This document shows, in pieces, positions 13,304 to 62,355 of a stretch of DNA of 64,000 nucleotides. Position numbers and translations under genes: made by a program. The notes under the pieces are model-generated. The model was not told the origin of the DNA. It ran no database searches and saw nothing but the letters and a program-made list of their open reading frames with translations. Within the stretch, counting starts at the first letter, position 1, and every line of letters starts with the position of its first letter. The stretch spans positions 4,368,816-4,432,815 of the forward strand of contig OZ024783.1 in the NCBI GenBank assembly GCA_964017065.1. The letters run 5' to 3'. The DNA is from Haliclona indistincta. Taxonomy: Eukaryota > Porifera > Demospongiae > Haplosclerida > Chalinidae.

Positions 13304-16300
13304 ATGGAAGCCACTGATCTTGAAGAGCCCAAGTTCACATGTGTAGAAGCCTTTAAACAAAGAGACCATGATAAAGCATTGCAATTGCTTCCTAACCTAC
13401 AGCAACCAGCTGCTGTACGTACATCTTACAATGTAACACCTCCTTTCAAATCTGATTCCATGTCCACTGATGCTTCTTTGCTTCACTTGGCTGCACTTAA
13501 TGGCTGGATGGACATTGTAGCTATCCTGATAGACAAGTATGGCTGCAGTAGTCAATGCTGTGATAGTGAGGGGCAGACTCCTTTACACTATGCTGCTTAT
13601 GGTGGTAGCCTGGTAGTTGCAAAGTACTTGATCACTGAGCAAAATTGTGATCCACTGGATTCATGTGATGATGGTCTCAATTCTTTACTCTATGCTTGTC
13701 TGGGAGGTTGTCTAGAGTTAGTCAAATATCTCATAACTGAACATCATTGTGATGCAAATTTTTTAACTGAAGAGAAAGTATCACTACTTTCTGTGCTCTT
13801 GACAAAACAAATTGATATAGTCAAATACCTTATAACTGAGAGACGTTATAATCCAAACAGTATGGACCAAAAAGGCATGACTCTGTTGCATAATGCAATA
13901 GATGAAGGTATAGAAATCGATCACCTTAGAATCCACTATCTCATCGAAGAGCTAGGTTGTGATCCAGCATTACCCAACGAAGATAATGATATGCCAATTC
14001 ACATTGCTTGCCTTGGTGGTCAATTGATCGTTGTAAAGTATCTTATCAATGAACAACACTGCGATTCAAACGGTAGAGGACAATATGGTTGGACACCTTT
14101 GCATAGTGCTTGTGAGAATGGTCACATGGATATAATCCAGTATCTGATTACAGAGCATGGTTGTGACCCTGCAATACCAGATGATAATGGTGATACGCCA
14201 ATGCACATTGCTTGTGTTTATGGGCAACTAGTAGTTGTCAAGTACCTTATCACTGAACAACTTTGTGATCCAAACGGTAGAGGAAAATATGGTAGTACAC
14301 CATTGCATAGTGCTTGTGAGAATGGTCATATGAACATAGTTCAGTATCTTATCAGTGAACATGGCTGTGACCCTGCTTTCACTGACAATGATGGCAAGTC
14401 AACTTTGCATTATGCCAGTGGTGCTGGCCATATTCAAATTGTAAAGTGGCTGATACAAGATAGACATTTAGACGTATTTAGTAAAGACAAAAATGGTCGT
14501 ACTGCAGTTGATTATGCTGAATCCAGTCACAACAGCTATGAACTGTTAAAACTATTCAAACCGTTTCTGCAATCAATAAAGTCTTATCCAATTCACTCAT
14601 TCACTAAGACAATTATCACAGGGAACAGTGGTGCTGGGAAATCTTCTCTTTCCCAATGCATTATACAGCAAGCCACCCGTGGCTGGTTTCAGCGGTTCAG
14701 GAAAGTGCCTCCTGTAGAACTGCTGACGGCTGGTATAAACACTCATTTCGTTTACAGTCCTAGTGTGGGAAACATGATTTTGTTTGATTTAGCTGGACAA
14801 GCTGAGTACAACTTCAGCCATTCTGCCATAATGGAAGTTGTCATACAAAAGTCTACAGCCATATTCGTTAATCTAGTTGATCTTAGCAAGAGTGAAGAAG
14901 AGATAACTCATGCTCTTTGCTACTGGCTCAATTTTATTCAAGAATCTTCATGTAAAAGTGAAGAGAAATCATTCCTTGTGATAGTTGGCAGCCATGTCGA
15001 CATGGTCACTGAGAATCAAAAGGAATCCAAGAAGTTGCTTGTAACTGAACTTGTAAAGGCGAGAACTAAAAGATTGGAGTATATTGGATTTGTTGGTATG
15101 GATTGCCGCAAGATGAACAATAAGAAATTGCCTTCTTTAGTTCTACAATGTCATCGCTCTATATTGGATCAAGCACCTTCACTCAGTATATACTGTCATT
15201 TGTTGTATGCATTTCTTAGAACAAAGGTGGAAAGAATAGCTATTCGTTTGAAAGACCTCATATTACATCTGATTTCTGTTGGAGATTCTCCCATTCCACT
15301 AGATGTGCTTTACCTCAATGAACTGTTAGAGTCTCTGAATGAAATAGGTGTAATTATTTACATGAGGAACAAGCAGTGTGTGGAAAAAAGCTGGGTAGTA
15401 ATAAAGATGGAAATTTTGTTGAAAGAAGTCAATGGTGTGCTGTTTGCACCAAAGCATTTCAAAGAGTATTTTCCAATAGCCAGCAATACTGGTATAATAC
15501 ATTTCTCTTCATTTCGAGAGATCTTTTCCAAGTACGATCCTGAGATGCTGGTTGAACTATTGGTCAGTCTTGAGTTTTGTCTTCCTGTCAACTTGTCCGG
15601 TATTAATACTAATCTTCAAGCTACTGTTGCCACTGATGATAAATTAGATCAATTTCTTTTCTTTCCTTCACTGTTGAATACTGAGCAACCACAAGATTTA
15701 GTCATAGAACAATCTGATCTGGTTGCATTTGGATGGTGTCTTGGTTCCAAGGATTATCAGTACCGATATTTTTCAGTTCGCTTTCTACATGTTTTGATTC
15801 TCCGCCTTGCGTATACTTTTCTTTTTCCTCGTGAAAACATTTCTAAAAACTATCCTTTGCATGGACTTGAGCAGAAGTGTACTGTGTGGAAAAATGTCAT
15901 TTCCTGGATCAATCAGGATGGTATCAGGACAGTAGTGGAGGTTATCCAGCAAAATCGTTGGGTTGTGGTGACCATGTACCACAACGAGGACATTACCAGT
16001 CCAGTGGAGTACAGCAAGCATTGCAGTGCTGTGATCAGACTGGTTCTAGATCTCCAGAACGAACTGGCTCCAGACCTAGACACATTAGAGTGTCTCATCT
16101 CTCCCTCTCTACTCCAACAGTGTCCATTGGAAAGTATTCCTGAAACTGCAAACCTATATTCTATCAAAGCTATTGCTAGGGCTGTACTCCTCCACAATCC
16201 AGTGATTCTTAGTTGCACTAATGACAGTCATCAGCTCTCGACTGAAAAAGCTCTATTCTTTGAACCATATCATCTCTTGAGTCCCTCCTCTGTGTGTGAC

Positions 16301-17291
16301 CTAATGGACAGCAGCAAGAGTGACCAGCCAGTCTCCTCTGCCCTCCTCAATGAGGTGAGGGAGTGCTGTCAGCAGCCTCTGCTGGAGTCACAGAGCCACT
16401 TGAGCTTGAAGAAGCATTTAGACAGTATGAGCATATTCACAGGAAGAAATCCATTGGTGAGTATGTAGTCGTACTATGGTTTTACAAATAATGTTTGTTA
16501 CATTCTTTTCTACATGCAGGTATTGGCAGACCTTGATCCTGATGAAATTTTCAAGCGATCACCAACAGTTGATGTAGAAGGTAAAATTATTTTAGATAAA
16601 TTTTATGCTAGCTCTTGTGCCAATTTGACATGTGTGCTTACATGTATAGCAACACCAGATCAGTCTTGTACTCAACATGTTCCTACTACTCAACCAGTAT
16701 CTACTCCTCCTAATGAGGAAGAACCACAAGTCATGGTAGACTTATCCAAAGTTCCTGATGGCACACTAGGTAAGAGTACATCAACTCTTTGAGTATCATT
16801 TCATTCTCTCACTATAGATGACTCTCATCTATCAGTGTTAGTGACAGCACTGAGTACAGTGTATCAATGGTTCCCACTTGGTATCCGTCTTGGTTTGAGT
16901 TTTCCCACTTTGAAAACAATTGAGCAAACCCAGTTGAAAGAGGTAGAGATGTGCAGAATAAATATGCTGGGTACATGGCTGAAAGGACCGGTTGAAACTC
17001 GCAACAAACAGATTCTTCAAAGTGCTTTGCAGCAACTCTCTATTTCTGTCATTCCTACGAGAACTATAGAAGGTAAACATTGATAATTCTATCGTGCCAA
17101 TTTTACATATGCATTTGCATGTAGCAACACCAACTCAATGTAGTGCTACTACATTTCAGCCTCATTACCTTTGCGCAGTATGCGCCAGGGTTATGTGTTT
17201 GTGTCCGTGTATTTATGTACGAATGTACATGTATATGTGTGTCATCAAACAACACACCTGTTTGCGTCTTATTGCTTTAAAATCTCCATGA
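13304..17291 (+). CDS. Gene 1: ankyrin - Roc GTPase - COR - Death domain protein
   Basis: Predicted exons: 13304-16456, 16520-16580, 16650-16769, 16818-17072 and 17125-17291; about 1251 aa. Ankyrin repeats fill residues about 55-410, with two of the 68-residue double repeats. Next is a Roc domain: P-loop GNSGAGKSS from residue 440, DLAGQ at about 495 and GSHVD near 563 where NKxD is usual. A COR-like region (about 620-880; EILLKEVNGVLFAPKHFKEY) and a conserved tail (about 900-1051) follow. The fourth exon is a Death domain (LGIRLGL, MLGTWLKG). Ankyrin-Roc-COR-Death is the layout of DAPK1 without its kinase, so an intracellular signalling scaffold is likely. The last exon is doubtful: it runs into the duplicated block beginning near 17,219 and ends in cysteine-rich, low-complexity sequence. 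The original 3' end may therefore have been lost. Introns after the second exon are phase 1. Confidence 0.8.
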
Positions 17292-17598
17292 AAACACTCT
17301 CTGCAGCTTCGTCACCGAATTTATAGTCCTATGAAGACGTTTTCTCTGCTGGCAAGACTTGCTCGAGCGGCTAATCCATGGCTTTCTAAAGCTACATGTC
17401 CTTTTAAAATCAATTTACGGCATTGTGGGTGTGTCACCCACCTTCTATCCATATTGACGTCCTGGCCTGCACTCAGTCTCACACTCAAATCCATGGTTAA
17501 ACTTCTTGATGCCTTTGATCATAGGGTATCAGTCCTTCTGACGTGCCAATCAACTGTTAGTCTGTTTGTGCATGTATGGTAGCTATGCTATCTTCATT

Positions 17599-19285: not shown

Positions 19286-19304
19286 TGTGTGTAACTGTTC
19301 TCAG

Positions 19305-22157
19305 GTGCTACTGGATTGCAGAACAAAAGCCTTATGGAGAGGCATATACAACAGCATGGAAGTGTACAATTACTCTCGCTCAAATCTTTCTTTATTGGTC
19401 CTTCATGTGTGGGTAAAACCACAGCTCGTCGTCGTCTCACTTTTGAGATTACTCACATTTCACCAGACGACAATTTTCCTAGTACTAGAATAGATGCTCC
19501 ATTAACAGTCCAGTTGCACCAGACAGATCAATCATCAGTGCTCTTATCTGAAGAAGGATGGAGGAGTTTGGGACTTAGGGAGCAATGCAGGACAGTGTGT
19601 AGCCATGGTATCAGCAATCCATTGTCACCACCTTCAAGCAGCTCTACCTTACCAATGATACCATCTTCGCCATCTACCATTCCTCCTACACGTACTGCCA
19701 CCACCCAGAGCATCTCCGCTGCATTCTCTCATAAAGCGGAAACCGTTACTGCTACTACTACTACAGGATCCATTGATGAGCTGACTACTACACACCATAT
19801 TGATGATCCTATTGATGAGTCTACTGATGAGCCTGTTATTGATAATGATAAGCCTACTGATAAACCTACGATAAACTGACTGATCTAATTGCCGGAATCT
19901 CCACAATTATTAAAGATGAAGATTGGGAGTCTATCCGAGATAGACTTAGAGAGAGGGGTACGCTTAAATTTCTTCACATATTTGATATTGGAGGACAACC
20001 AGAGTGTCATGAGATTTTACCCCTGCTATTGCACGGCTTGGCTCTTAATTTGATTTTTCTAAATGTGACACAAGACCTGAACTCTCCCTACACTGTTGTA
20101 TACAGGGATGATGGCGGAAACTCTCCTATCCAGTATGAGTCAGAATTTACTATCCGCCAGATCATCCAGGGTGCCCTCTGCAGCATTGCATCACTCCAGA
20201 CTAGTCAATACCACAAGCCAGCAGCCATTCTTGTTGGTACCTATCTTGATCGGAGTAGTGAAGTGGATGTCTTTACACTAGATCAAACAATTCAGGAAGC
20301 TTTCAAAGAAACAAATTTCATGAAGAGTGACATTCTGTGTCCAGTCAGTGAATCAGAAGAGAAGGCACGATACATTCACCCTCTGAACAATGTCAGTAGT
20401 GACCCCAGCGATATCGAGAAACTACGTCAGCTAATAACGAACATAGTTAATCAACGCTTCGAGCCAGAGCGAGTACCAACATCTACCTTGTTACTTCATC
20501 TCATTTTGCGCCAGAGATTTGAAATGAGAGGATGGTGCAGCTTAAAGGAATGTGTGGAGGTTGCAAATATCTGTAGAATCTCTAGAGAAGATCTTCTGGG
20601 GGAGAATGGTATCCTCCAGTTTCTCCATGACAGGTTTGGCACTATCCTCTACTATCGTGGCTTGAAGATTGGTCAGCGTGTTATCATCAATCCAAATATC
20701 ATCTTGGGCCCCACCACTGAGCTCTTTGTATATGCATTTGGTGCTAAGAAATCTGAGCCAAGAACAGCTGAGAGGATTCGAACCACGGGAGAAATACCTC
20801 AACGCTTAATGGACAAGGTGTGCTCATCCAAGAGTACCAAGAAAGCTGATGAGATCCCCACTAGTGAGATTGTAGAACTTTTAGCTTCTCGTTACATTTT
20901 GTATGAAAATGCAAGTGAGGAGACAACCTATTTCCTACCCAGCCTTCTTTATCCCGATCACAATGTGGCCAAACAATCCAATGACCCTACCGTTCTCTCC
21001 GGTCTATTCTGTTCTCCAATACTCTTCTGCCCTTCTACTAAATTTTGTCCTCTTGGTCTTTTTCCAGCCACAGTAGTCAACTTATCCAAAAGAGAATTTT
21101 GGAAACTGGACAAGCACAATAGATTTCGTAACCGAATTCGCTTTTATGTCCAGTACAACAAAGAGAAGTTGCTGCATGTGGAGTTACGTACCCTGTAAAC
21201 TCATCTGGATTTTCGTATACTTTCTGATAAGCCTGTTAAATCTTGCTTGATAATACAGCTTCGTCGAGAATTGTGGGATGCCATTACCAAAGTCTCGTTA
21301 ATTTATCCCCACACACAAAATGTAAAGTGGTTTTATGGGTTCTACTGTCCTCATGCTGTGGACTCAGGTGATCATCCTCATTTGGCTCTTTGCCAGAAAA
21401 CAGAGGAACCGCAAGATGTGGTATGTTCTTTGTCAGATTGTCATAGAGGACCAATTGCATTAGGGGATAGACACAAGTGCTGGTTCATGGTGAGTATTAT
21501 TATATACGTATGACGGCATCCACATTGAAATTTTATGCGTTTGCCACTAGTAACAGGAGATACAAATAAGCAAGCTTTTTGAAACGATTTTTTATTTCTA
21601 CAGGTACTGGCAGAGCTTGATCCTCATGAAGTTTTCAAACAATCACCAACAGTACATATAGAAGGTAAACATTGATAATTCTATCATTACATTAATTGAT
21701 AATTCATGTGTACTTGCATGTAGCAAAACCAGCTCAGTCTGGTAGACCATCTCAACATCTTCCTACTACTCAACCAATTCCTACTCCTTCTACTGTGGAA
21801 GAACCGCAAGTCATGGTAGATTTATCCAAAGTTCCTGATGGAACTCTAGGTAAACGTGCATCCACTCTTTGAGTATCATTTCATTCTCTCACTATAGATG
21901 ACTCTCATCTATCTGTGCTGGTGACAGCACTGAGTACAGTGTATCAATGGTTCCCACTTGGTATCCATCTTGGTTTGAGTTTTTCCACTTTGAAAACAAT
22001 TGAGCAAAACCAGTTGAAAGAGGTAGAGATGTGCAGAATAAATATGCTGGATACATGGCTGAAGGGACCGGTTGAAACTCGCAACAAACAGATTCTTCAA
22101 AGTGCTTTACAGCAACTCACTCCATCTATTACTTTCATTCCTATGAGATCTGACTAA
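19305..22157 (+). pseudogene. Broken chimeric Roc-COR-Death gene, copy A
   Basis: The large exon (19305-21489) is a close copy of 45304-47462. It has the P-loop GPSCVGKT, a Ser/Thr/Pro-rich insert, DIGGQPECHE, GTYLDR and the COR-like ILQFLHDRFGTILYY. It is disabled twice: a one-base deletion near 19876 (ACGATAAACTG versus ACCGTTAAACTG), and TAA at 21196-21198 where copy B has TCA. After a junction near 21575 the downstream exons are not those of copy B. They are gene 1/2-type exons 21604-21664, 21724-21849 and 21898-22157, which keep an open frame and encode the PDGTLG linker and a Death domain ending in TFIPMRSD. The tail exons fit by phase, so this looks like a recombinant that died later. 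If translation starts downstream (M at 20029), a shorter product up to 21198 is possible but lacks the P-loop. Confidence 0.78.
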
Positions 22158-23134: not shown

Positions 23135-23136
23135 TA

Positions 23137-24054
23137 TCTGATGTTCCTGATGGCACTTTAGGTGAGCTAGAGATTAGTCAGCCAAATTTGTGTGAGAACT
23201 GTTTACAAGACTATTTTTGAAACACTTGATGGCTATAACAGCTGTGCAGTCAATTATTATCTGTATTCACACTGCTTGCCATAATGTTATGTGTATTGCA
23301 GTCCTGTTTATAGTAAATAACAACTATTATAAACTCTTCTAACACTCTCATTCTCTCACTATAGATGACTCTCATCTATCAGTGTTAGTGACAGCACTGA
23401 ATACAGTGTATCAGTGGTTCCCACTTGATATCCATCTTGGTTTGAGTCATTGAAAACTATTGAAGAGAATCAGAGAGGACAAGTGGAGAGGTGTAAGATA
23501 GACATGCTAGACCTGTGGCTGAAGGGCCCAAAAGACAAGCGTACTAAACAGTTCCTTCAAAATGCTTTACGACAACTCTCTTCTACTAGTGAGTATAAGA
23601 GAAAATAGCTCAATGCACCAACTACCATGAATACTAATGAGTCATAAATATCATTTTGAGACCGTTTCTGTAAGAAATAGAGGGTGAAGGATTTCAAGGT
23701 GCTTAATGTAATGTGATTTCGAACAATAGTACAATATGCATACACTCCAATATCATGTGTGTTGTACTAAAACGTCTCAATTTATTACAGATAATGTGTT
23801 GTGATGTGTCATATCATCCTCCCATTTCTCTCATTGTTTTTTCGTTATAATTATTTCTCAATACTGCCGACTGTACTGCAAGTCATCATTGCTGATTATC
23901 ACAGTAAGTATTACAGCATTGTCAATGCCTTTATTATGACAATTGACTTTATTATGAGTGTGTGATTATAATGTCTTAATTTCTTTCTACAGGATTTCTT
24001 CTTTCCTTCTGCCTACTCTCTCAGTACCGCTTGAATCTCTCCTTTTTCTGCCGC
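23137..24054. pseudogene. Death-domain exon remnant and flanks
   Basis: The linker-exon end (TGTTCCTGATGGCACTTTAG, 23144-23161) is fused directly to repeat copy 1. A Death-domain exon remnant follows at 23365-23585 (DDSHLSVLVTALNTVYQWF). It has a deletion at GAGTCATTGAAAAC that breaks the frame. The stretch 23590-24054 matches 25725-26150 and has no gene. Confidence 0.7.
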
Positions 24055-24712
24055 TTGTATGATCCTTGCTCCAGAATGCTGTGACCTTATGATTATCTTA
24101 CTAGAGCTCCTACCTCATGATGCCCTCACAACCTAATCTGACACTCATTCCTTTCGCTCTCTCTCTTTCTTTGATCCTCCTGTCTATTATGGGATCAAAA
24201 ATTATTTAATATTTATATAAAACTCGATGGCTAGCAAGGTCGTGCACCATCAATCCTGTCTCCTGTTTGATCCAAGCTCTTTAAACTGGATGCACTCCAT
24301 CTCTCAGTCTTTCCTTACGTCTTATTTGATCCAAGTGTGATCATTGTTTAATTCTTCATAATTCTCGACTCTATTTGCAATTGATGGTCTCCATCAACCT
24401 CAATTTGTTCTTTCTGATTCAATCTCCTCATACGTGTACTGGAACATGATATTAATTCTTTATTACCTAACACAGTTAACCCCTTGATCACTAGCTCATC
24501 TTCAACCAGTCTCAATCAATGTGTTCTCTCTTTGTCTACTAGAGCACTCTGAGCTATAAGGACTCCTTTTCAATTCTCTTTTTCATACAATCAAGACTGG
24601 ACTCTCTAATCTCTCTCATAAACTCTTTCCTCATTCTTTACCAGATCTTGTCTCCAGTGAGAAGATCTACTTGTTAATTCTTTATCGCCGACTCTCGATT
24701 ATAACTGTGTGA
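24055..24712. repeat. 650-bp conserved non-coding repeat, copy 2
   Basis: Same blocks in the same order as copy 1, with small deletions (for example around TATTTATATAAAACTC). It lies directly before a tail fragment of the Ank-Roc-COR gene. Confidence 0.85.
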
Positions 24713-24739
24713 TATTGAAGCAATGCTCCTTCATTGAGA

Positions 24740-25727
24740 GCTGATTCTTAGTTGCACTGATGACAACCATCAGCTCTCAACTGAAAAGGCTGTATTCTTT
24801 GAGCCATATCATCTCTTGAGCCCCTGTTCTGTGTGTGAGCTGATAGACAGCAGCAAGATTGACCAGCCAGTCTCCTCTGCTCTCCTTAATGAGGTAAAAG
24901 AGTGTTGTCAGCAGCCTCAGCTTGTGTCACAGAGCCACTTGAGCTTAAGAAAGCATTTTGATAGTTTGAGCATAATTATATTCACAGGAAGAAATCCTCT
25001 GGTGAGTGCAGCAATCATTCTTACATGTATCTTACATCATTGTATAACTACAATAATAAATAGTGGCAGAGCTTGATCCAGAGGTTGTCAAGCAATCACC
25101 GACGACAGTTGTTGAAGGTACACATTTGAATACAAACTCTTGTGCATAATTTAAATTATTTGTACTTGCAGTAACTAAGGTACCAGCACAGTCTGTTGAC
25201 ACATCTCAACCTCTTCCAGCTGTATTTCCTCCTGTGGAAGAACCAACACTTGTTGTAAATTTATCTGATGTTCCTGATGGCACTTTAGCGGGTAAGCTAG
25301 AGTCAGCCAAATTTGTGTGAGAACTGTTTACAAGACTATTTTGAAACACTTGATGGCTGTAACAGCTATGCAGTCAATTATTATCTGTAGTCACACTGCC
25401 TGCCATAATGTTATGTGTATTGCAGCCCCGTTCATAGTAAAATTACAACTATTATAAACTCTTCTAACACTCTCATTCTCTTACTATAGATGACTCTCAT
25501 CTATCAGTGTTAGTGACAGCACTGAGTACAGTGTATGGTTCCCACTTGGAATTCGTCTTGGTTTGAGCCATCCTGTCTTGAAAACTATTGAAGAGAATCA
25601 GAGAGGACAAGTGGAGAGGTGTAGGATAGACATGCTAGACCTGTGGCTGAAGGGCCTAGAAGGCAAGCGTACTAAACAGGTCCTTCAAAATGCTTTGTGA
25701 CAACTCTCTTCTACTAGTGAGTATAAG
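24740..25727 (+). pseudogene. Tail fragment of an Ank-Roc-COR-Death gene
   Basis: Only the last part of the large exon survives (about 24745-25001; FFEPYHLLSPCSVCELIDSS, then GRNPL and a GTGAGT donor). It is followed by a shortened 61-nt-type exon (about 25064-25117), a linker exon (25172-25290, SDVPDGTL) and a Death exon (25490-25714). The Death exon has a 4-bp deletion (GTGTATGGTTCC versus GTGTATCAATGGTTCC) and TGA replacing an Arg codon near 25699. No P-loop or ankyrin region is left. A similar fragment lies at 48895-49735. Confidence 0.8.
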
Positions 25728-30354: not shown

Positions 30355-30447
30355 GCTATGCTCGTACAACAAAATGTAAAACACAAACACATTTTACATT
30401 TAATTGAGTTGACCATTATTCGCAAATCTCTCCAGCCTAAATGAGTT

Positions 30448-37830: not shown

Positions 37831-38147
37831 ATGGAATTCTTTATGAATGATCTGTGTGTGCATGATCATCACATTCTCTTGGATGTTCAAAAATTATAAA
37901 CTATTTTTCCGCTTATTCTTTTCCAATATTTTTCGGCACTCTTCACTTATAAATCATTCACAGGTTTCAATTTCACAAATTCATATCGTTTTTATATCAT
38001 TAAAAATTGTGCAAAATTCAAACCATGGTCAAAAAACTACTGTTAGAACATTGTGACGTGAATAGACCCAATTTAAAATTTCCCGCCTTTTTGTAATAAC
38101 GACCCACACCTTCTTTTGAGGTGCTTCGTTGGTAGAGAAAGTTCAGT

Positions 38148-42337: not shown

Positions 42338-42735
42338 AAACAAGAAATTAAAAAGATTTCTATCGAAATCAAAAGGATGTAGTGATGAAGAAATCTACCA
42401 CTGGTTCACAATGTAAACCAACAAGGAACAAGCATAGAATGGTAACACGATTGACTTGCTAACAGACCATAGATCCCTACATCAGTGGCTGCTGTGGCCA
42501 GACTATAGCTAGTTAAGCTATTTACTGTTGACTGACACTTTGAATAGAATTCAGCTTGTGACAAAATATTGATCTTATGTACAGCCACTGATGTAGGGAT
42601 CTATGGTCTGTTAGCAAGTCAATCGTGTTACCATTCTATGCTTGTTCCTTGTTGGTTTACATTGTGAACCAGTGGTAGATTTCTTCATCACTACATCCTT
42701 TTGATTTCGATAGAAATCTTTTTAATTTCTTGTTT
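42338..42735. mobile_element. Foldback element, intact copy 2
   Basis: Two arms of about 154 bp (42338-42491 and 42582-42735) are nearly perfect inverse copies around a 90-bp centre. Arms run from AAACAAGAAATTA through GATTTCTATCGAAATC to ACATCAGTGGCTG. No coding capacity. Confidence 0.9.
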
Positions 42736-43049
42736 GTGTCCTTTTTTCTTTTTAGTGAAGTGCAGTTCAATATCATGCATGTACGGAGAAGTCTTTGTTT
42801 CCACCATTAGTTTAGTATTCCTGTTGTTGATGGATTTTCTTAAACTTGTAGCTAAAATGGTATGCCTAGTCGCCAACGCATGCATGCAGTGCATACGAGC
42901 CCCGCCCACACTTGTTTGTAGGATTTGGTACCTGTTCGCCTACTCCCACTTCGCCTACTCCCATTTTGCCTACTTACAGCCCCAAAGGGACGTTTTGCCT
43001 ACTAGAAGTAAGCAAAACTAAACCCTAAACCCTGAACCCTAAAAACCTT

Positions 43050-45071: not shown

Positions 45072-45303
45072 GTATAAACATGCATCCACTCTTTCAATTG
45101 CATGCTTTAGCTCATCATTCAACACTTCGCTGTCTTCTAGTTAGCTAGCATGCAGGTAGGCACTGCACTAATACTAGCTGCTCCAAGCCTAATGGGCTAT
45201 ACTGCTGCAAGTGCAAACCAACATTAGGGAGCTAACATTACAGTGTGCATGAAACGCCAAGGGTTTTATGAAATCTGTTATTATTGTGTGTAACTGTTCT
45301 CAG

Positions 45304-48300: not shown

Positions 48301-48507
48301 TGCCAGACACTTGATACTATCCAACAAAACAACCCAGGAGAGAAGGAGGCGGCCTGCAGGATGTATATGCTGAAGAGTTGGTTGGATGGGGAAGATGAGG
48401 TCACTCGATATGGTGGACCATCCTGGCAACAATTAGTTGACAGTCTCAGAAAGCTTGGACAAGACGCTCTTGCTCAGAACATCGAGCAAGAAATTTACAG
48501 AGAATGA
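45304..48507 (+). CDS. Roc-COR protein with two Death domains (intact copy B)
   Basis: Exons 45304-47462, 47522-47867, 47916-47984, 48032-48136 and 48218-48507 join without stops. Starting at the Met at 45315 they give about 985 aa. Residues 25-40 hold the P-loop GPSCVGKTTARRR. A roughly 150-residue Ser/Thr/Pro and Asp-rich stretch (DDPIDESTDEPVIDND) separates it from DIGGQPECHE (about 225). GTYLDR stands in the G4 position. The COR-like part has ILQFLHDRFGTILYY and VIINPNIIL. Death domain 1 is in exon 2 (DWYMLGIHLDL, EMFDAWLK, SWNDLIKALKAIGE). Death domain 2 is in the last exon (DWRGLGFVLGLD, CRMYMLKSWLDG, SWQQLVDSLRKLGQ). It has no ankyrin repeats. All downstream introns are phase 1 except the first, which is phase 0. 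The upstream acceptor at 45302-45303 suggests a further 5' exon that I cannot place, so the start is uncertain. A cytosolic adaptor or switch role is inferred. Confidence 0.82.
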
Positions 48508-48894
48508 CAATACCAAGCCAGTCCAGTATACCACAGAGCCCTCTGTCAAATAGTGCAGCCACCAACACCTACTACCCACACTGGCAAAGTAAGACACTGT
48601 CACACAATGAAACGAGTTAGTAATTAATGACTGAAAGGTATTCGACTGTATACCATTGAAGCGTAAAACTATGCAATCCCATTGATTGTGCAACACCAGA
48701 GAATGATTATTGTAAATTTTTAATTCATTTGTAAAATTTGTTGGGGATTTTAGTGTGTAAAATGTCATGGTCTAATAATAATTACATGTACATGCAGAAC
48801 AGGGTTGATTGTGTGCTATCCTCTCGTGTAGTGAGGATCTAAGAAGAATGGAAGAGCTGGATGCTGTACTCCCCCACAAACCAGCCATATTATC
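48508..48894. other. 3' flank of the Roc-COR-Death gene
   Basis: No gene recognised. The junction to a tail fragment of the Ank-Roc-COR family lies at about 48,880-48,895. Confidence 0.45.
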
Positions 48895-49735
48895 CCTTGA
48901 GTCCCTTCTCTGTGTGTGATCTAATCGACTGCAACAAGAGTGACTAGTCAGTCTCCTCTGCCCTCCTCAATGAGGTGAGGTAGTGCTGTCAGCAGCCTCA
49001 GCTGGAGTCACAGAGCCACTTGAGCTTGAGGATTAAGCATTGGGACAGTTTGAGCATATTCACAGGAAGAAACCCTCTGCATGGTGAGTGTAACAATCAT
49101 TCTTACATGTATCTTACATCATTGTATAACTACAATAATAGATAGTGGCAGAGCTAGATCCAGAGGTTGTCAAGCAATCACTGACGACAGTTGTTGGAGG
49201 TACACATGTGAATACAAACTCTTGCGCAAAATTTAAATTATTTGTACTTGCAGTAACACAGGTACCAGCACAGTCTGTTGACACACCTCAACCTCTTCCA
49301 GCTGTATTTCCTCCTGTGGAAGAACCAACACTTGTTGTAAACTTGTCTGATGTTCCTGATGGCACTTTAGGTGAGCTAGAGATTAGTCAGCCGTATTTGT
49401 GTGAGAACTGTTTACGAGACTATTTTTGAACAACTTGATGGCTATAACAGCTATGCAGTCAATTATTATCTGTAGTCACACTGCCTGCCATAATGTTATG
49501 TATATTGCAGCCTCGTTTATAGTAAATAACAACTATTATAAACTCTTCTAACACTCTCATTCTCTCACTATAGATGACTATCATCTATCAGTGTTAGTGA
49601 CAGCACTGAGTACAGTGTATCAATGGTTCCCACTTGAATTCGTCTTTGTTTGAGTCATCATACCTTGAAAACTATTGAAGAGAATCAGAGAGGACAAGTG
49701 GAGACGTGTAGGATAGACATGCTAATGAACGTACC
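48895..49735 (+). pseudogene. Tail fragment of an Ank-Roc-COR-Death gene, second
   Basis: It begins in the middle of the family tail (SLESLLCV-type frame; TGTGTGTGATCTAATCGAC). It carries in-frame TAG where others have CAG or GAG (GTGACTAGTCAG, GAGGTAGTGCTG) and a small insertion (GAGGATTAAGCATTGG). A short exon near 49144-49198, a linker exon 49254-49370 (SDVPDGTL) and a truncated Death exon (49574-49730, one-base deletion at CACTTGAATTCG) follow. The Death exon is cut off and fused to repeat copy 5. Confidence 0.8.
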
Positions 49736-49743
49736 ATGCTGCT

Positions 49744-50402
49744 TGTATGATCCTTACCATAGAATGCAGTGACCTTATGATTAGCTTACTAGAGCTCCTG
49801 CCTCATAATGCCCTCACAACCTAATCTGACACCCACTCCTTTCACTCTCTCTCTTTCTTTGATCCTCCTGTCTATTATGGGATCAACAATAAACATTGAT
49901 GGCTAGCATGGTCGTGCACCATCAATCCTGTCTCCTGTTTGATCCAAGCTCTTTAACTGGATCCACTCCATCTCTCAGTCTTTCCTTACGTCTTATTTGA
50001 TCCAAGTGTGATCATTGTTTAATTCTTCATAATTCTAGACTCTATTTGCAGTTGATGGTCTCCATCAATCTCACTCTGTTCTTTTCGATCCAATCTCCTC
50101 ATACTGGATCATGATATTAATTCTTTATCACTCTCCTCGGCTAACACAGTTAACCCCTTGATCACTAGCTCATCTTCAATCAGTCTCAATCAATGTGTTC
50201 TCTCTTTGTCTACTAGAGCACTCTGAGCTATAAGGACTACTTTTCGATTCCCTTCTTCATAGCTGATCAAGACTTGTTCCAGCTGCCTTCAACTCTCTAA
50301 TCTCTCTTAAACTCTTTCCTCATTCTTTACCAGATCTTGTCTCTAGTGAGAAGATCTACTTGTTATATTCTTTATCGCCGACTCTCATGCAATCAGTTAA
50401 AG
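49744..50402. repeat. 650-bp conserved non-coding repeat, copy 5
   Basis: Full copy joined directly to the truncated Death exon, followed by the same linker and reductase pseudogene order as copies 3 and 4. Confidence 0.85.
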
Positions 50403-50776
50403 CAAATCATGGAATTCTTTATGAATGATCTGTGTGTGCATGATCATCACATTCTCTTGGATGTTCAATAATTCTAAACTATGTTTCCACTTATTTTTTA
50501 TGTCTAATTTTATGATTTAAATTTATTCTTTTCTCAATATTTTTCGGCACTCTTCACTAATCAATCATTCACAGGTTTCAATTTCACAGGTTCCTTTCGT
50601 TTTTATATCATAAAAATTGTGTGCAAAACTCAAAAAAATACACCATGGTTTCCATGGTCAAAAAACTACTGTTAGAACATTGTGACGTGTATAGACCTGA
50701 TTTAAAATTTCGCGCCTTTTTGCAATAAGGAGCCACACCTTCTTTTGAGGTGCTTTGTTTGTAGAGAAAGTTTAGT

Positions 50777-52310
50777 ATGACGCGCTATCGATCGTTCGGT
50801 GAGGGTGGAAGAGTACTGTTGTCTGTGATTGGGCTGGGAGGCTCTGGACACGGGAGAATATACGGAGAGTTTGACGAAGAGGGCAGGCCTCAGGTAAACC
50901 AGAAATAAACTGCATGTGCCACATTTAATATAGCCATTTTCTAAGCTTGCACACACAGTTTGAACTGAGAATATGCTTCTACATGTGACTAGGTGGTGTG
51001 CTTTAGCTGCCCTGTATTTCATGGCTGCATTTTCTAGGTATGCTGTTTTAGAGAAAGGAGTCAATCTGATAGACACCTCACTGTTCTATGGTGAGGGTCT
51101 CCCAATGGTCAAGCTCTGAAAGGTATCTCTCGCAACAAGTTCTTTCTCTCAACTAAAGTGGGTCGCTACACATGGGCTGTAGCTACGAGATTTGACTTCA
51201 CAGCCGACAGAGTGACAAATTAAAGAGCATCAAAGAGAGCTTATCCCGTCTACAGCTCAGTCACGTTGATCTCCTGCAGGTCTATGATGTTGAGTTTGCA
51301 TCATCAGTTGATATGATAGTGAATGAGATGAGACTCTTCCTGCTGTCCAGAGATTGAAGGAGAGAGGATTGTGTCGATACATTGGTATCACAGGATACCC
51401 ACTACAACCACTGAGAGAGATCATCACTAGAAGCAACGTGAAGATTGACTCTGTACTCTCATATGCTAGACTCTCTCTCAATGACTCTTCTCTCATCGAC
51501 CATTTTGAGTTCTTCAAGTCACGTGGAGTAGCTCTCATCAATGCTGCTCCTGTCTCACTCGGTTCCTCAAGGACCACGTGAGTGGAATCCAGCGATGGAG
51601 GATGTGAAGAAGGCGTGTGCTGGAGCAGTCCAGTACTGCACTGAGCAGGGAGTGGATATCACTAGACTAGCAGTGCACTACTCAGTCAACCATGATGAGG
51701 TGAGAACACGTGCAGATTACAGAACACATGGTTGCTCTCTACTACAGTTTTTATACATGTAATGTAGCACACCTCATGAGTATAATTATCTGAGTCACTT
51801 CACTCACTAATTTTGTGTCCTAAAAATAATGCTAAATGTCTGGCTGCACCATGACAGTACCATGAAAAAGAGGATTTCCCTTTAGCCCCAGTTTCTCCCT
51901 AGAATCATGGTCAGTTGAATTTGTACTGCAAACAGCCTTGAAAGCCTAAAAATCGCTCTCAAGGACTTAAGATAGAAAATTTTCTTGGGCCGTACCCAGA
52001 CCCCATATAAATCTGATCGACCTTTAACACATAAAAATTCCACCTTAGAAAGAAAATTGTGTAAAAACCAGAAACTGCTATGTCTCAATTCCTCTAGGTT
52101 GTTTCCACACTGATCACCATTACTGATAAGGAGATGCTGGACAAGAATATAGCTTCCTCTCTCACTCCTCTCACAGAGAAGGAACGAGAGGTGCAGGAGG
52201 AGATTGAGAGGAGGTTCTTCCAGCCCCTCCCCCAGAGGCACTGGGAGGGGGTGGAGCCTGCCAGCTACTGGAGAATGATGAGAGAGCAAGGGCTATCGCA
52301 ACCAACATGA
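50777..52310 (+). pseudogene. Aldo-keto reductase, L-galactose dehydrogenase-like, copy 2
   Basis: Same gene as at 38148, with different lesions. About 14 bp are missing at GAGGGTCTCCCAATGGTC, where copy 1 encodes GEGLSELFLG. About 5 bp are inserted at GTGACAAATTAAAGAGC and at GTGAATGAGATGAGAC. A stretch is lost at CTCACTCGGTTCCTCAAGG. The first exon (start at 50777) and last exon (about 52100-52310, ending LSQPT) are otherwise recognisable. Because the copies are broken at different sites, the gene was duplicated first and decayed afterwards. Confidence 0.82.
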
Positions 52311-54511
52311 TTGAGATGCTTGATATAGACACAACATGTATAAATAATTATAATACTTCTTCGGTTTTTTGGTAAAACAAACAATCAAAGTGTGTTTCAA
52401 ATCAAAGTATGTTGCATATTTCAGCAATTAACATATGGAAAAGCTAGGTTAGGGCGAAATTTTCTGCCCATATTAATATTACTAGTGCCAAGCTCAGTTT
52501 AGTGAGACACCAATGGGTTTTGGTGTCTGCACAGCGTTGCAGTACATCAGTTGTAAACATCATTTGGAGTCTGAGTTGTGTTCTGCTTTTATCTAGCACA
52601 CAGCTGCTATTTACTTTACCTGTACAGTATCTGAATATATCTAGTAACGAACTAGTGCAGTTTCACTGTTACTGCTGCAGGTCTGTACTTTACCAACTCA
52701 AATTCGGCTGCTGTATAAATATGTACTCACTACTGACGGGTTAGCTCATACATGTAGATGGTTGGCTGGACGTTGGTGAAGCTGAAGAACTACATGTACT
52801 AGCTAGCTTAATAATCGGGTAGAGATCAGTAGAATAACTGTTTATAAAGGCATCGGTATACATTTAATTGTGCTGCACTGGCTGCTATGAATACAAGAAG
52901 ATGGGTGGGGCACGTATGCGTGGGCGGGGGCGGACGCCGTTTGCTACATTCAAGAGCGCATGCGCTATTTTGCGTCTGATTCGTTTGTGTGTCAGCAACC
53001 TTTGACGAGGTGTGTCTCGTACAGTTTGATGTCCTACTAGTGCTTCATCTTGTGTTACAGTAAGTTTGGATGCATTGATTAGTAATAATCATTAATTTTT
53101 TATCTCTAACGATCATCAGATCAGAGCAACGTGCGAATGATGGTGATCTTTCCGTAGGAGCCACGCCCAGATTTTTGCCAGGTAACGATTTTCTGAATTA
53201 ACTCTGTAGCTTGACTAGCAGAATTGGATAATAGCTTTGTTTGAATCATGCCCATTCATTTTCTTATAATCTCACAACATGCAAGATGTGGACTCGTAAT
53301 AATTATTTTACCAAAAATTTAAAATCAAACCAGTGCAGTGTTCTTTGACAATTTTTGCTAAAGATTTTTAGCTTCATGCGATTTTTGCATCTGTTAGACC
53401 AGTTATCATGCAGTTAAATTATCTACCTGAATGGTATTAAAAGAATTTGCATCCATACATAAATTTTATCTAGTCGGTTGGCTCTCAACTAACTAAACAA
53501 AGTCGGTTGTCCTTGTACAGTGTCGGGCTGCGCCCTTGACCATTGCTCGGGCAACCCACTTTCCTGCAGTCGTTAATGTCGGTTAATGCCCTCACGTGAG
53601 GGCAATAACTAATACTTACTCTGTTACTGAATTCTGTTTTGTTGAAAAATTCAATAATAAATTCATAATTTATTCATTATTTTGTCAAAGGTCACTTTAT
53701 TAATGAATACTGCTATGTCATGAATAGTGAATAATAAAATGGTTATGCTGTTCAATGAATATGCTCATACTCGTATGAACCACCCCTAGTGTTTTGGTGA
53801 GCCAAGGTACATGAAATGTGTGAGAAATCATCTTCAACCAATGATTTTGTTGCCTCTGTCAAGACTCAAACAAGATTAAAAATAAAATTGGTATCTTGTT
53901 GTTAAATGATTCTTACTAGGCTGCATGTCAGCTAATGCACAGCAACTCGTGATCATGGCTTTGGCACTATAAATTATCATGAAGTTTGAAAGGCGCCTAG
54001 TTAATCTGTCAGTGAGTAAAGTGTTACACTGAGAGATTAATTTCACAACTAATAGAAAATCACAGTGTTATAGTTGTCTAACTATTTCCAATGGTCCTGC
54101 CTTAACTTAAGAAAGTAATGTCGGAGTTAGCTTTAAGTATTTCCTTGCGACCAAAAAAAATTATTAAACACATGAAAATTCAACTTATTCTTTAATTATG
54201 TATTATATGTGCATCAATGGTATGTGCTTTCAGCAAAACAGCCGGATTGAAGTGAAAAAGGCAAAATTTTAGGCACAATACTGGCAGTTTTAATACCCAA
54301 AGTCCCATACACATAATTGTAGCTAGCCAAGCATAACTTTACAATGAACGAGTAATTAAGCTGCAATGCATCAACATGCGTCAGTTCCAGTGTGGTCACA
54401 ATTTCACTAGTGCAACTTAACAATAAATGTAACACAACAATATTATTTATTTAATTTAATAAAAATAATTATAATACCCTGGCAAGATCATCGATTTATT
54501 AGCAGCATGTA

Positions 54512-56551: not shown

Positions 56552-59500
56552 ATGGAAGTCACTGATTGTGATGAGCTCGAGCTCGTGTTTGTAGAGGCCT
56601 TCAAGCAACGAGACCATGATGTAGCATTGCAATTACTACCTAGCCTGCAGGAACCTGCTGTTGTACGAACATCTTATACTATAGTACCTCATATACCAGA
56701 CTCCACATCCACTGATGTTTCTTTGCTGCACTTGGCTGCACTCAATGGCTGGATGGACATTGTAGTTATCCTGATAGACAAGTATGGCTGCAGTAGTCAA
56801 TGCTGTGATAGCCAAGGACAGACTCCATTACACTATGCTGCGTATGGTGGTAGCTTGATAGTGGTAAAGTACTTGATCACTAACCAGCACTGTGATCCAC
56901 TACATGGTAACAACACTGGTGGAAATTCTTTACACTATGCTTGTCAAGGTGATCACTTGGAAATAGTGAGCTACTTTATTAATGAACTTGGTTGTGATGC
57001 AACCACTCAAGATCATTATGGTCATATGGCAATACACTTTGCTTGTTGCACTGGTCATAAAGTAATCCATTATCTGATCACAGAGCAAGGTTGTGACCCA
57101 ACATTACCAGACAATGATGGTAACATGCCGATTCACATTGCTTGTCATAAAGGGCAATTAAGTGTAGTCAAGTACCTTATCACTGAACAACACTGCGATC
57201 TAAACAGTAGAGGACAATTGGGTAGGACGCCAATGCACTTTGCTTGTCAATGTGGTAACATGGATATAATCCATTATCTGATCACAGAGCAAGGTTGTGA
57301 CTCAGCATCACCAGACAATGATGGTAACATGCCGATTCACATTGCTTGTCTTAATGGGCAATTAAGTGTAGTCAAGTACCTTATCACTGAACAACACTGC
57401 GATCCAAATAGTAGAGGACAATCGGGTTGTACGCCAATGCATTGTGCTTGTCAATGTGGTAACTTGGAAATAATCCGGTATCTGATCACAGAGCAAGGTT
57501 GTGACTTAGCATTAACACTCAATGATGATAACATGCCAATTCACATTGCTTGTCGTAATGGACAATTAAGTGTATTCAAGTACCTTATCACTGAACAACA
57601 CTGCGATCCAAACAGTAGAGGACAATCGGGTTGGACGCCAATGCATAGTGCTTGTCAATGTGGTAACTTGGAAATAATCCGGTATCTGATCACAGAGCAA
57701 GGTTGTGACTCAGCATTAACAAACGATGATGGTGACATGCCAATTCACATTGCTTGTCTTAATGGGCAATTAAGTGTAGTCAAGTACCTTATCACTGAAC
57801 AACACTGCGATCCAAACAGTAGAGGACAATCGGGTTGGACGCCAATGCATAGTGCTTGTCAATGTGGTAACTTGGAAATAATCCGGTATCTGATCACAGA
57901 GCAAGGTTGTGACTCAGCATTAACAAACGATGATGGTGACATGCCAATTCACATTGCTTGTCTTAATGGGCAATTAAGTGTAGTCAAGTACCTTATCACT
58001 GAACAACACTGCGATCCAAACAGTAGAGGACAATCGGGTTGGACGCCAATGCACTTTGCTTGTCAATGTGGTAACATGGATATAATCCATTATCTGATCA
58101 CAGAGCAAGGTTGTGACTCAGCATTACCAGACAACGATGGTAACATGCCGATTCACATTGCTTGTCTTAATGGGCAATTAAGTGTAGTCAAGTACCTTAT
58201 CACTGAACAACACTGCGATCCAAATAGTAGAGGACAATCGGGTTGTACGCCAATGCATAGTGCTTGTCAATGTGGTAACTTGGAAATAATCCGGTATCTG
58301 ATCACAGAGCAAGGTTGTGACTCAGCATTAACAAACGATGATGGTGACATGCCAATTCACATTGCTTGTCTTAATGGGCAATTAAGTGTAGTCAAGTACC
58401 TTATCACTGAACAACACTGCGATCCAAACAGTAGAGGACAATCGGGTTGGACGCCAATGCACTTTGCTTGTCAATGTGGTAACATGGATATAATCCATTA
58501 TCTGATCACAGAGCAAGGTTGTGACTCAGCATTACCAGACAACGATGGTAACATGCCGATTCACATTGCTTGTCTTAATGGGCAATTAAGTGTAGTCAAG
58601 TACCTTATCACTGAACAACACTGCGATCCAAATAGTAGAGGACAATCGGGTTGTACGCCAATGCATTGTGCTTGTCAATGTGGTAACTTGGAAATAATCC
58701 GGTATCTGATCACAGAGCAAGGTTGTGACTCAGCATTACCAAACGATGATGGTGACAAGCCAGTTCACATTGCTTGTCATAATGGGCAATTAAGTGTAGT
58801 CAAGTACCTTATCAATGAACAACGCTGTGATCCAAACAGTAGAGGACAATCGGGTTGGACGCCAATGCATTGTGCTTGTCAATGTGATAACCTAGACATA
58901 ATCCAGTATCTGATCACAGAGCAAGGTTGTGACTCAGAATTATCAGACAATAATGGTAACATGCCAATTCACATTGCTTGTCTTAATGGGCAATTAAGTG
59001 TAGTCAAGTACCTTATCACTGAACAACACTGTGATCCAAACAGTAGAGGACAATCGGGTTGTACGCCAATGCATTGTGCGTGTCAATGTGGTAACCTTGA
59101 CATAATCCAGTATCTGATCACAGAGCAAGGTTGTGACTCAGCATTACCAAACGATGATGGTGACAAGCCAGTTCACATTGCTTGTCATAATGGGCAATTA
59201 AGTGTAGTCAAGTACCTTATCAATGAACAACGCTGTGATCCAAACAGTAGAGGACAATCGGGTTGGACGCCAATGCATTGTGCTTGTCAATGTGGTAACT
59301 TGGAAATAATCCGGTATCTGATCACAGAGCAAGGTTGTTACTCAGCATTATCAAACGATGATGGTGACATGCCAATTCACATTACCTGTCTTAGTGGACA
59401 ATTAAGTGTAGTAAAGTACCTTTTCACTAAACAACACTGTGATCCAAACAGTAGAGGACAATTTGATAAGACGCCATTACATTGTGCTTGCATATATGGT

Positions 59501-62355
59501 CACATGGAAATTATCCAATATCTGATCACAGAACTAAGATGTGACCCTGCTGTTGTTAACGAAAGTAACATTTCACCATTGCATGTAGCTTGTCGTTATG
59601 GTTATACACTTGCAGTAAAGTATCTTTTACAAGATGGACGAGTGAATGTATCAAGTGAGGATGATTTCGGTCGTACTCCAGTTGACTGTGCTGAGTTTAG
59701 TAATAAAAGCTATGAGCTATTGAAACTATTTCAACCACTTCTTCAATCTAGAGCTGACTTTCCCATCCACTCATTCACTAAAGCTGTTCTTACAGGAAAT
59801 AGTGGAGCAGGTAAAAGCTCTCTTGCTAAAGTTATCATTAAGCAAGCACCTATGAAAATAATAGTGAAACAAGACAAGGATACAGGAGAAGGGAAAAAAT
59901 CTACTGTCAACCACGGTTCTCCATTAGTGCAAAGCGAAAATGAATTTGAAGTAGAGGCTCTCACTGCTGGTATAGATTCATATGTCATTAGGAGTGAGAA
60001 GATCGGAAACATAGTGCTGTATGACTTGGCAGGTCAATCAGAGTATTACTTCAGTCAAAGTGTTATTATGGAGACAGTGATGCAGAGAACACCAGCCATC
60101 TTTATCAACCTGGTTGACCTAAGCAAGAGTGAGGAAGAGATAGCACAAGCTGTCCATTACTGGCTTACATTCATAGAGAATATTACATCGAAAGCTAGCA
60201 ATCAGTCATGTATATTAATGGTTGGTAGTCATATTGATCTTCTTAATGAGAATGAATTGCTGATAAAGAGTACTCTAGTGCAAGACTTGATAGACAGAAG
60301 AGTGAAACATTTTAATTATGAAGGTTTTGTTGGAATGGATTGCCGCAAACTCAGTGACAGCAATACTGAGAGATTCCTTCCTCTTCTTTCCCAATGCCAA
60401 ACTACTATATCTGCTTATTCACCTCCTGTGAGTGTGTACTGCCACATGCTTTATTCATTTCTTCAAACAAAGTTAGACAAAATATCTTGTCAATTTTATG
60501 AACTTATTCTACAGTTTTCTACGGAAGAGGAATCACTTATACCTCCAGACAAATCTCTTCTTTGTGACATGTTGGAGTACTTGGGTGACAAAGGTTTAAT
60601 TATCTACCTTAAGAATGATGAGAGTGTAGTAAAGAGCTGGGTGGTAGTGAAGAGAGAAGTCATATTGAAGGATATTAATGGAGAGTTGTTTAAACCAAAG
60701 TATCACAGAGGGTATCGCCCAATTGCCAGCAGTACTGGTATAATTCGTGTATCATCTCTGTCAGAGCTGTTTCCTCAGTATGATCTACATATGTTAGTAC
60801 AACTCATGATCAGACTAGAGTTCTGCTGTCCTGTGAACTTGTCAGATGTCAAAACAAATCTTAAACCAATCGATGGTTATGATAAAACTGACAATCTTCT
60901 CTTTTTTCCGTGTTTATTGTCTGCTGAGCGGCAGCAAGATCTTACCAGTGAAATTCAGCAATTATCTTCTCACCAAGCTTGCTTTGGATGGTGTCTAGGC
61001 TGCATGGACTATGAGTATCAATTTCTCACTAGTCGATTTCTTCATGTTCTCCTTCTTCGTCTGGCTTACACCTTTCCTCTACCTAGTAAAGGATACTCTA
61101 AAAGTAATATTCTTTATGGACTTCAGAAGAGGTGTACTGTGTGGACAAATGGTATTTCCTGGAATAATAAAGAAGGTATCAGGACAGTAGTGGAGGTTAT
61201 CCAGCAAAATCGTTGGGTGGTAGTGACCATGTACCACAACAAGGACAGCACCAGACCAGTGGAGTACAGCAAGCATCGCAGTGCTGTGATAAGACTGGTT
61301 CTAGATCTTCAGAAGGAACTGGCTCCAGACCTGGACACATTAGAGTGTCTCATATCACCCTCTCTACTCCAACAGTGTCCATTAGACCGTCTTCATGAGT
61401 CAGACCTTTTCACCATAGCTGATGTAGCCAGCTCTATACTCTGCCGTAATTTAAGTGTTCTTAGTTACAATGATGGCAGCAATCAGCTTTCAACTGAAAA
61501 AGCTGTATACTTTGAACCATATCATCTCTTGAGCCCCTCCTCTGTGTGTGACCTGATGGACAGCAGCAAGAGTGACCAGCCAGTCTCCTCTGCCCTCCTC
61601 AATGAGGTGAGGGAGTGCTGTCAGCAGCCTCAGCTGGAGTCACAGAGTCACTTGAGCTTAAGGAAGCATTTGGACAGTATGAGCATATTCATAGGAAGAA
61701 ATCCTCTGGTGAGTACTCATGTAGCTGTACTATGGTTTTACGAATAATTTTTGTTGTATTCTTTTCTACAGGTAGTGGCAGAGCTTGATCCTGATGAAAT
61801 TGTCAAGCAATCACCACCAGCTGATGTAGAAGGTAAACATTGTAATGTTCTAGCATAGAAGAATGCAATATCACCCGATTTGGTCTTAGTCAGTGGATTC
61901 ACTTGTGTCTTCGATAACAGATATTGTACAATGAAATTTTATCATGAAATTTTATTGTCTAATAGATACGAGTGCAGGTATTGATGCTATCGCTCAAAAT
62001 GCTACTAGACAGCACAGTAAGTACACAATTATTATAGAGATTCCAAATTGATTGATTCCAATACTATGCAGATTCGAATGCTCTTGATGTAAGGAATCTT
62101 CTCACAGCATGCAAGAATGTTACTGAATGGCGACAGCTTGGTATACAACTAAATGTCACCACGCCGGAACTGGATAACATTTACCAGACCTATCATACTG
62201 AAGGGATTGTCATACTCAAGAGTCAGATGTTTGATGTTTGGTTAAAGAACTCACCTGGCTCATCATGGACTGAACTAGTCAAAGCATTGAGGGCAATAGA
62301 TAACAACACTGTTGCCAGTGACATTGAAAGAGTCTACATACAACCAGGTATTTGA
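56552..62355 (+). CDS. Gene 3: ankyrin - Roc GTPase - COR - Death protein with a different tail
   Basis: Exons 56552-61708, 61772-61832, 61966-62016 and 62072-62355 join in frame to about 1850 aa. The N-terminus (MEVTDCDELELVFVEAF) is a diverged relative of genes 1 and 2. Ankyrin repeats run to about residue 1045, with twelve 68-residue double repeats at 57.1-59.5 kb. The P-loop GNSGAGKSS starts at residue 1082. The Roc domain has a charged insert (KQDKDTGEGKKS) before DLAGQ at about 1158. GSHID stands where NKxD is usual. The tail of the large exon is nearly identical to genes 1 and 2, but the last exons are not: a 51-nt exon replaces the 120-nt linker, and the Death domain (WRQLGIQLNV, MFDVWLKN, SWTELVKALRAID) is closer to the first Death domain of the 45-48 kb gene. 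Phase-1 borders permit this swap. A GT follows CCAG at 62347, so a further exon cannot be excluded. Confidence 0.87.
57100..59500 (+). repeat. Twelve-unit 204-bp ankyrin array in gene 3
   Basis: Units repeat every 204 bases and some neighbours look identical over their whole length (about 57673-57876 versus 57877-58080). Others repeat as 408-bp pairs (58129 and 58533 onward). The frame is never broken. Confidence 0.9.

Follow-up and report, generated by a model that had tools for sequence, protein, structure and literature searches.

Kinase-free ankyrin-Roc-COR-Death genes form a genome-wide family in the sponge Haliclona indistincta and are candidate intracellular receptors

Introduction

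The DAPK1 group of Roco proteins is metazoan, is marked by a Death domain (DD) and is the sole Roco group that carries a kinase before Roc-COR (PMC6337361). Other ROCO sets have been reported from distant lineages: Trichoplax has at least 17 ROCO genes, some with Death or CARD domains (PMC4104024), Aplysia has a ROCO joined to TIR, with Death in the same figure legend (PMC9334734), and brown algae hold 9-47 ROCO genes per species, which a 2024 paper calls the largest known (PMC11378527). In sponges, Amphimedon shows a TRADD-N/Death-fold expansion of 357 proteins (PMC8195603), and a figure legend of a 2026 paper on sponge NLRs lists COR among its domains (PMC12909245). Here we describe three genes from a 64,000-nucleotide stretch of the genome of the sponge Haliclona indistincta (the window; assembly GCA_964017065.1, contig OZ024783.1, positions 4,368,816 to 4,432,815), each of which encodes ankyrin repeats, a Roc GTPase, COR and a terminal DD in one protein. 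Such a sponge family is undescribed in the titles and visible abstracts of the literature searched, most subscription journals lying outside that search. We think it reasonably probable that these genes encode kinase-free, GTP-switched sensors which signal by DD-DD contact alongside or through NLRs, recognition leading to immunity or cell death.

Results

Gene 1 (13304-17083), gene 2 (30448-36841) and gene 3 (56552-62355) each combine an ankyrin array with a Roc GTPase, COR and a DD; positions are window coordinates, and all window features of this family and its sister family are on the plus strand. Their open frames of 1055, 1935 and 1734 codons begin at 13304, 30448 and 56552, respectively. 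In all three, exon 1 ends in a phase-0 donor after NPL and is followed by two small exons and then the DD exon; the introns, predicted from sequence, are GT-AG throughout, in phases 0, 1 and 1. In gene 1, exon 1 (13304-16456; ankyrin repeats, Roc and COR, by open frame, Pfam and fold match) is followed, after the phase-0 intron, by two linker exons (16520-16580 and 16650-16769) and by the DD exon (16818-17083), read to its stop and assigned by homology and a model, without a Pfam match. Gene 2 consists of a first exon with a long ankyrin array, Roc and COR (30448-36240; open frame and Pfam), exons 2 (36299-36359) and 3 (36413-36532) and a DD exon with the stop (36582-36841; weak Pfam match), giving a product of 2077 residues from ATG to stop. 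Gene 3 has a first exon of the same composition (56552-61708; open frame and Pfam), an exon 2 of the type shared with genes 1 and 2 (61772-61832), an exon 3 unlike theirs (61966-62016) and an exon 4 whose DD is of another ROCO family's type (62072-62355; Pfam Death E 5e-6). Genes 1 and 3 reach a stop shortly past the DD, and each may have an additional 3' exon, there being a GT behind the DD frame at 17073 and at 62348, respectively. An in-frame TGA lies 3-9 nt 5' of the ATG in all three genes, so that a kinase could not fit ahead of the ankyrin array in that frame, as the sequence-only reading of this stretch had supposed in calling the genes kinase-free. Neither a NACHT domain nor a catalytic output domain is among the Pfam matches of genes 1-3. 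Matches to DUF2170, DUF4681, ABC_tran and PspAA were judged probable by-products of repeats, P-loop or helices.

The ankyrin repeats are unequivocal by Pfam (E 2e-67 to 3e-289). Roc is matched weakly in genes 1-3 (E 7e-5 to 2e-4, under the curated cut-off), and Pfam gives no COR match in any of them; Pfam was therefore too weak as the sole test for COR and for the DDs of genes 1 and 2, and was replaced by fold and homology. A structural model of the gene 1 Roc-COR, built from a 42-row Roc-COR alignment of relatives, reached a mean predicted local distance difference test (pLDDT) of 71.7 and a predicted template modelling score (pTM) of 0.68. Its best Protein Data Bank (PDB) matches by Foldseek, over some 600 columns, were LRRK2 (8fo9_A, E 2.4e-20), LRRK1 and the C. 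tepidum RocCOR (CtRoco; 3dpu_A, E 1.5e-15). In the same alignment, the P-loop GK[ST] (G1) is kept in 32 of the 33 rows covering that site, and the G3 and G4 motifs DxAG[QH] and SHxD in 36/36 and 39/41 rows. COR, directly behind Roc, is thus confirmed by the fold predicted for gene 1, and the genes show both marks of the ROCO family, a Roc with G1, G3 and G4 motifs and a COR straight after it. A PDB profile search with the alignment was swamped by ankyrin repeats and gave no information on Roc-COR. The module appears to be under purifying selection (gene 1 versus gene 2, ratio of non-synonymous to synonymous divergence, dN/dS, 0.05/0.159, about 0.31).

The sequence-only reading had likened these genes to DAPK1. 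The likeness holds for the domain order: ankyrin repeats precede Roc and a Death domain ends the protein. It is not to be read as a statement of kinship: DAPK1 is not among the 50 PDB matches listed for the gene 1 Roc-COR model, and the N-terminal calmodulin-regulated kinase of the DAPK family is absent. Genes 1-3 are a ROCO variant, not DAPK members, and resemble DAPK1 in domain order only.

For the DDs, profile evidence and modelling complement each other. Pfam Death scores above its cut-off for the gene 3 DD (E 5e-6) and for both DDs of a sister gene of the window described below, under it for gene 2 (E 0.06), and gives no match for gene 1. The gene 1 DD was modelled from a 7-row alignment (pLDDT 70.8) and has five helices of at least four residues; death domains, including those of TNFR1, ankyrin, Fas/FADD, RIPK1 and RAIDD, make up 28 of its 32 PDB matches (TM 0.56-0.77; no E-value better than 0.1). 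Profile matches confirm the DDs of gene 3 and of the sister gene; those of genes 1 and 2 are confirmed by homology together with modelling. The claim of three genes with the order ankyrin-Roc-COR-Death is upheld by open frames, Pfam ankyrin and Roc, the COR fold and these DDs together. A death-like exon was also present in 8/8 sampled paralogues spread over five contigs, preceded by the conserved ending GRNP(L/I)V in seven of the eight (L042 was missed by the pattern used). By Pfam, the DDs of L041 and L042 are above cut-off and those of L038, L040, L043 and L044 weaker; two DD exons have no Pfam match, that of L037, a gene 1-type exon, and that of L039, which is split by about 0.5 kb. A tree of 14 DD rows had one well-supported branch only and was used for identities alone.

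The family had been taken for a local one; it is instead genome-wide. Counts below are scored places: the first-look candidates (509, 500, 397 and 401) are not gene counts, and 60-74 were scored for each query. The gene 1 Roc-COR query found at least 70 places, with no stop inside the match in 70/70 scored and with frames of 563-4337 codons; the gene 3 query gave at least 74 rows (72/74 without a stop), and its overlap with the gene 1 list was almost complete. Their union is at least 74 Ank-Roc-COR places, 60 of them on contig C1 and 16 within the 1.5-Mb stretch C1:3.4-4.9 Mb surrounding the window. Because the two query lists, each a lower bound, are nearly identical, the true size of the family is suggested to be close to 74, at least one further Ank-Roc-COR frame (L026, C4:13.53 Mb) lying outside the 74. 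At least 50 of the 74 places have, within 3 kb downstream on the same strand, a DD of the type found in gene 1 or in gene 3; it lies 264-374 nt downstream in 42 of the first 47, and an upstream DD was seen in 0/70. The DD searches scored the best 150 of 838 and the best 150 of 963 candidates, and misses are not absences, because L040-L043, drawn from four places counted as misses, have death-like exons. As controls, 60 places of the sister family gave 41 downstream and 7 upstream DDs, and 139 COR-A places (139 matches among 150 scored, part of them under the curated cut-off and some short) gave 15 downstream and 3 upstream. The downstream-DD test is clean for the Ank-ROCO genes only.

Pooled with the COR-A matches, the places of the sister query (at least 60) and the rows of a family on C7 (at least 63), the ROCO places of every kind in the genome come to at least 282 distinct ones, broken copies included; these are places, not annotated genes. 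Public proteins yielded 842 relatives at E up to 1e-3, and no Pkinase was found in the 120 relatives listed, in a search whose length window would exclude DAPK1-sized proteins. Twenty loci were fetched, two window flanks included, and 14 ROCO frames were scanned, four loci being outside the scan. In seven of the 14, Roc and/or COR-A are the only large domains recognised; two (L021, L029) are LRR-Roc-COR, one (L026) is Ank-Roc-COR, and two (L024, L025) combine NACHT with COR-A in a single open frame. These two are NLR-ROCO fusions (C6:9.373-9.383 Mb and C6:8.975-8.985 Mb) whose Roc-COR is 59-61% identical to the stand-alone C7 ROCO family. That family has itself expanded recently: at least 27 full-length or nearly full-length rows, excluding the query, are spread over C7:1.96-7.41 Mb at 84-97% identity. 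The remaining two of the 14 frames, L019 and L023 on C2, are LRRK-like: each joins LRR, COR-A, a kinase and repeats of WD40 type, and Pfam Roc is matched in L019 only.

The DD type of gene 1 is shared with NLR genes. A NACHT search, in which the best 102 of 631 candidates were scored, placed a gene 1-type DD 427-488 nt upstream of 8/102 matches and downstream of none; the gene 3 type accompanied none of the 102. Six of the eight DD-NACHT genes lie in C5:2.93-3.07 Mb, where the Ank-ROCO genes occupy the other strand. By coordinates, there are three tail-to-tail NLR/Ank-ROCO couples on C5, with 3.1-3.3 kb between the end of Roc-COR and NACHT. One couple was read in sequence (L045, C5:3023000-3030500): an Ank-ROCO gene and its DD occupy the plus strand, and a DD followed by a NACHT frame the minus strand. 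The DD of this NLR is 61-67% identical to the gene 1-type DDs of the window and 36% to that of its neighbour. Pairing with an NLR is not a general rule for Ank-ROCO genes: beside three further ones on C5, 2-kb probes found no NLR. The same DD type on both kinds of gene, the three tail-to-tail pairs and the lack of a catalytic output domain among the Pfam matches would also suit regulators or decoys that occupy the DDs of NLRs or adaptors and dampen DD signalling without sensing a ligand. We regard this as improbable; a decoy would hardly need long ankyrin arrays that duplicate their units, nor a conserved GTPase switch.

The sequence-only reading had also announced a sister Roc-COR-Death-Death family, and its gene at 45294-48507 is real. 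It comprises a Roc-COR open frame (45294-47531, with a predicted splice donor somewhere inside its end), a first DD (frame limits 47504-47890; Pfam Death E 5e-8) and a second DD (48217-48507; E 4.5e-6); COR-A is under the Pfam cut-off (E 3e-4). The other copy, its paralogue at 19295-21489 (sister copy 1), is frameshifted near 19864-19879 in its Roc-COR and is followed by a DD cassette of the gene 1/2 type (21604-22157). Broken pieces consisting of a COR tail and DD fragments lie at 23343-25697 and 48843-49769. Together with the frameshifted copy, they confirm the broken copies between the genes, and the proposed tandem layout is upheld.

Fast evolution, likewise proposed earlier, is visible at three levels. 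Firstly, the ankyrin arrays are built of 204-nt units of two repeats each, inside one exon (gene 1, 13929-14432; gene 2, 31070-34216; gene 3, 57063-59606). Units of the same gene mostly share 84-95% identity, and units of gene 2 compared with those of gene 3 mostly 77-82%; outliers occur at the array ends, and some units are identical in protein. Secondly, the synonymous divergence (dS) between genes 2 and 3 is at least 0.7 (twice saturated) across Roc and most of COR and 0.03-0.19 in two COR patches, at 61142-61381 and 61502-61708 of gene 3, which match 15887-16126 and 16250-16456 of gene 1; the patch limits were picked after viewing the dS profile. Fourfold sites of genes 2 and 3 are identical at 53/55 positions in the patches and 41/90 outside, and their longest identical run (31 sites) was reached in 0/10000 shuffles, a strong result. 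Between genes 1 and 3, fourfold sites are identical at 46/53 positions in the patches and 40/91 outside, and the longest-run shuffle is marginal (476/10000). Read from the sequence, gene conversion appears to act in the COR of this family. Thirdly, DD exons seem to have been swapped between ROCO families within introns. Sister copy 1 is homologous to sister copy 2 up to 21573 and to gene 2 from 21595; the switch falls in the intron before exon 2, and an Ank-ROCO tail has therefore been joined to a sister Roc-COR. The nearest relatives of the gene 3 DD, among the matches listed, are four at 70-76% behind COR-A-type genes on C1. A relative of gene 3 at C1:4.297 Mb is 88% identical in Roc-COR and has a DD of the gene 1 type (95%), and a broken relative at C1:4.33 Mb has one of the gene 3 type (69%).

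These data bear on two further explanations. We consider it unlikely that the family is a lineage-specific expansion, by tandem duplication, of scaffold or signalling proteins that do housekeeping work in the cytoskeleton, autophagy or development and have no link to recognition. Such an expansion agrees with the purifying selection on Roc-COR, with the lack of a sign of positive selection in the ankyrin units, with the existence of such roles in DAPK1 (PMC6337361) and with the fact that other families are many-copied too (Death, 150/150 scored, 1372 candidates; NACHT, 102/102 scored, 631 candidates), whereas variable array length, swapped DD exons and the sharing of DDs with NLRs better fit recognition families. 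Very improbable, we believe, is a role in allorecognition, that is, as polymorphic cytosolic self/non-self proteins for sponge contact or fusion, which would be in keeping with genes that are clustered and exchange parts and with the sessile lifestyle noted for such expansions (PMC8195603).

The window also holds other elements. Mobile elements border the cluster, namely a Mutator-like transposase (7830-8960; Pfam E 9e-67) and a frame for a YqaJ-type nuclease (9962-10825; E 1e-8), and a DUF7869 frame (2927-3712; E 7e-16) is perhaps, at a guess, another. Short repeats up to 97% identical, direct and inverted and resembling small transposons, occur at 11222-11625, 42338-42842 and 63832-64000. 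A duplication of about 2.8 kb (37913-40644 and 50523-53275; 85% identical) lies downstream of gene 2 and of fragments, respectively.

Discussion

The reading that we favour, that of kinase-free sensors, can be set out as follows. The genes would encode cytosolic sensor-switch proteins in which the ankyrin array binds a ligand or a guarded host protein. Roc-COR, whose fold and motifs are found here, would serve as a GTP-driven conformational and dimer switch, its GTP state controlling assembly; there being no kinase, the output would have to be assembly rather than phosphorylation. The C-terminal DD would then relay the signal, through homotypic contact, to partners with a DD of their own, including the NLRs with which it shares its type. 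Diversification would proceed by duplication of ankyrin units, gene conversion in COR and exchange of DD exons between ROCO families through introns. The most likely use would be the recognition of microbes, symbionts or non-self, followed by cell death or an immune response. An immune or cell-death role is still something that we infer, as the sequence-only reading did, but it is now better supported, by the DD exons common to Ank-ROCO and NACHT genes and by the three tail-to-tail NLR/Ank-ROCO pairs. We regard the genes as good candidates for unrecognised intracellular immune receptors.

Several points weigh against this reading. Only 8/102 scored NACHT genes bear the gene 1 DD type, and the 2-kb probes beside the other three C5 Ank-ROCO genes revealed no NLR. 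The dN/dS of the ankyrin units, about 0.6, is elevated yet does not amount to positive selection, and many near-identical units suit homogenisation as well as ligand-driven diversity. The DDs of genes 1 and 2 are assigned by homology and a model of middling confidence, and the proteins are known here from sequence and models. Nor need an animal ROCO-Death protein be immune: DAPK1 serves autophagy and binds the cytoskeleton (PMC6337361).

Plant NLRs work in pairs. We offer tentatively, and hold to be rather doubtful, the wider proposal that the Ank-ROCO-Death proteins make up, beside the NLRs, a second class of recombining receptors for recognition inside the cell, with Roc-COR in place of NACHT, that both classes plug into one exchangeable set of DD exons, that some act, much like those plant pairs, as genetic pairs with NLRs and that DD swaps rewire the links between sensors and partners. 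If the genes are receptors, animals would own an intracellular recognition system on a GTPase switch beside NACHT-type NLRs, and the DAPK1 domain order could, it would seem, work without a kinase. The shared DD exons point to a recombination route to new signalling connections.

Compared with known systems, DAPK1 (Roco group 3) likewise runs from ankyrin repeats through Roc and COR to a Death domain at the C-terminus and has no LRR; it differs by its N-terminal kinase and calmodulin-binding part, whereas genes 1-3 are kinase-free and their family many-copied. Trichoplax ROCO genes also join Roc-COR to Death-fold domains in an early animal, but the partners named are LRR, TPR-type and AAA, and the main text of that report never mentions ankyrin (PMC4104024). 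The Amphimedon TRADD-N set shares Death-fold and ankyrin domains, massive expansion in a sponge and rapid change of architecture; there, however, the Death-fold is N-terminal and Roc-COR is not named in the section describing it (PMC8195603). The LRR-ROCO candidate immune receptors of brown algae likewise belong to an expanded ROCO family that shuffles repeat units (PMC11378527), but with LRR instead of ankyrin, each LRR being its own exon and subject to exon shuffling, whereas here the units duplicate inside one exon; their 9-47 genes (PMC11378527) compare with at least 282 places in H. indistincta, again places and not annotated genes. The N-terminal Death NLRs of sponges (NLRD) have NACHT rather than Roc-COR as the switch, LRR as the repeats and the DD at the opposite end, and yet they combine, like the Ank-ROCO genes, Death, an NTP switch and a repeat array (PMC12909245); in H. 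indistincta, at least eight NACHT genes carry the very DD type of gene 1.

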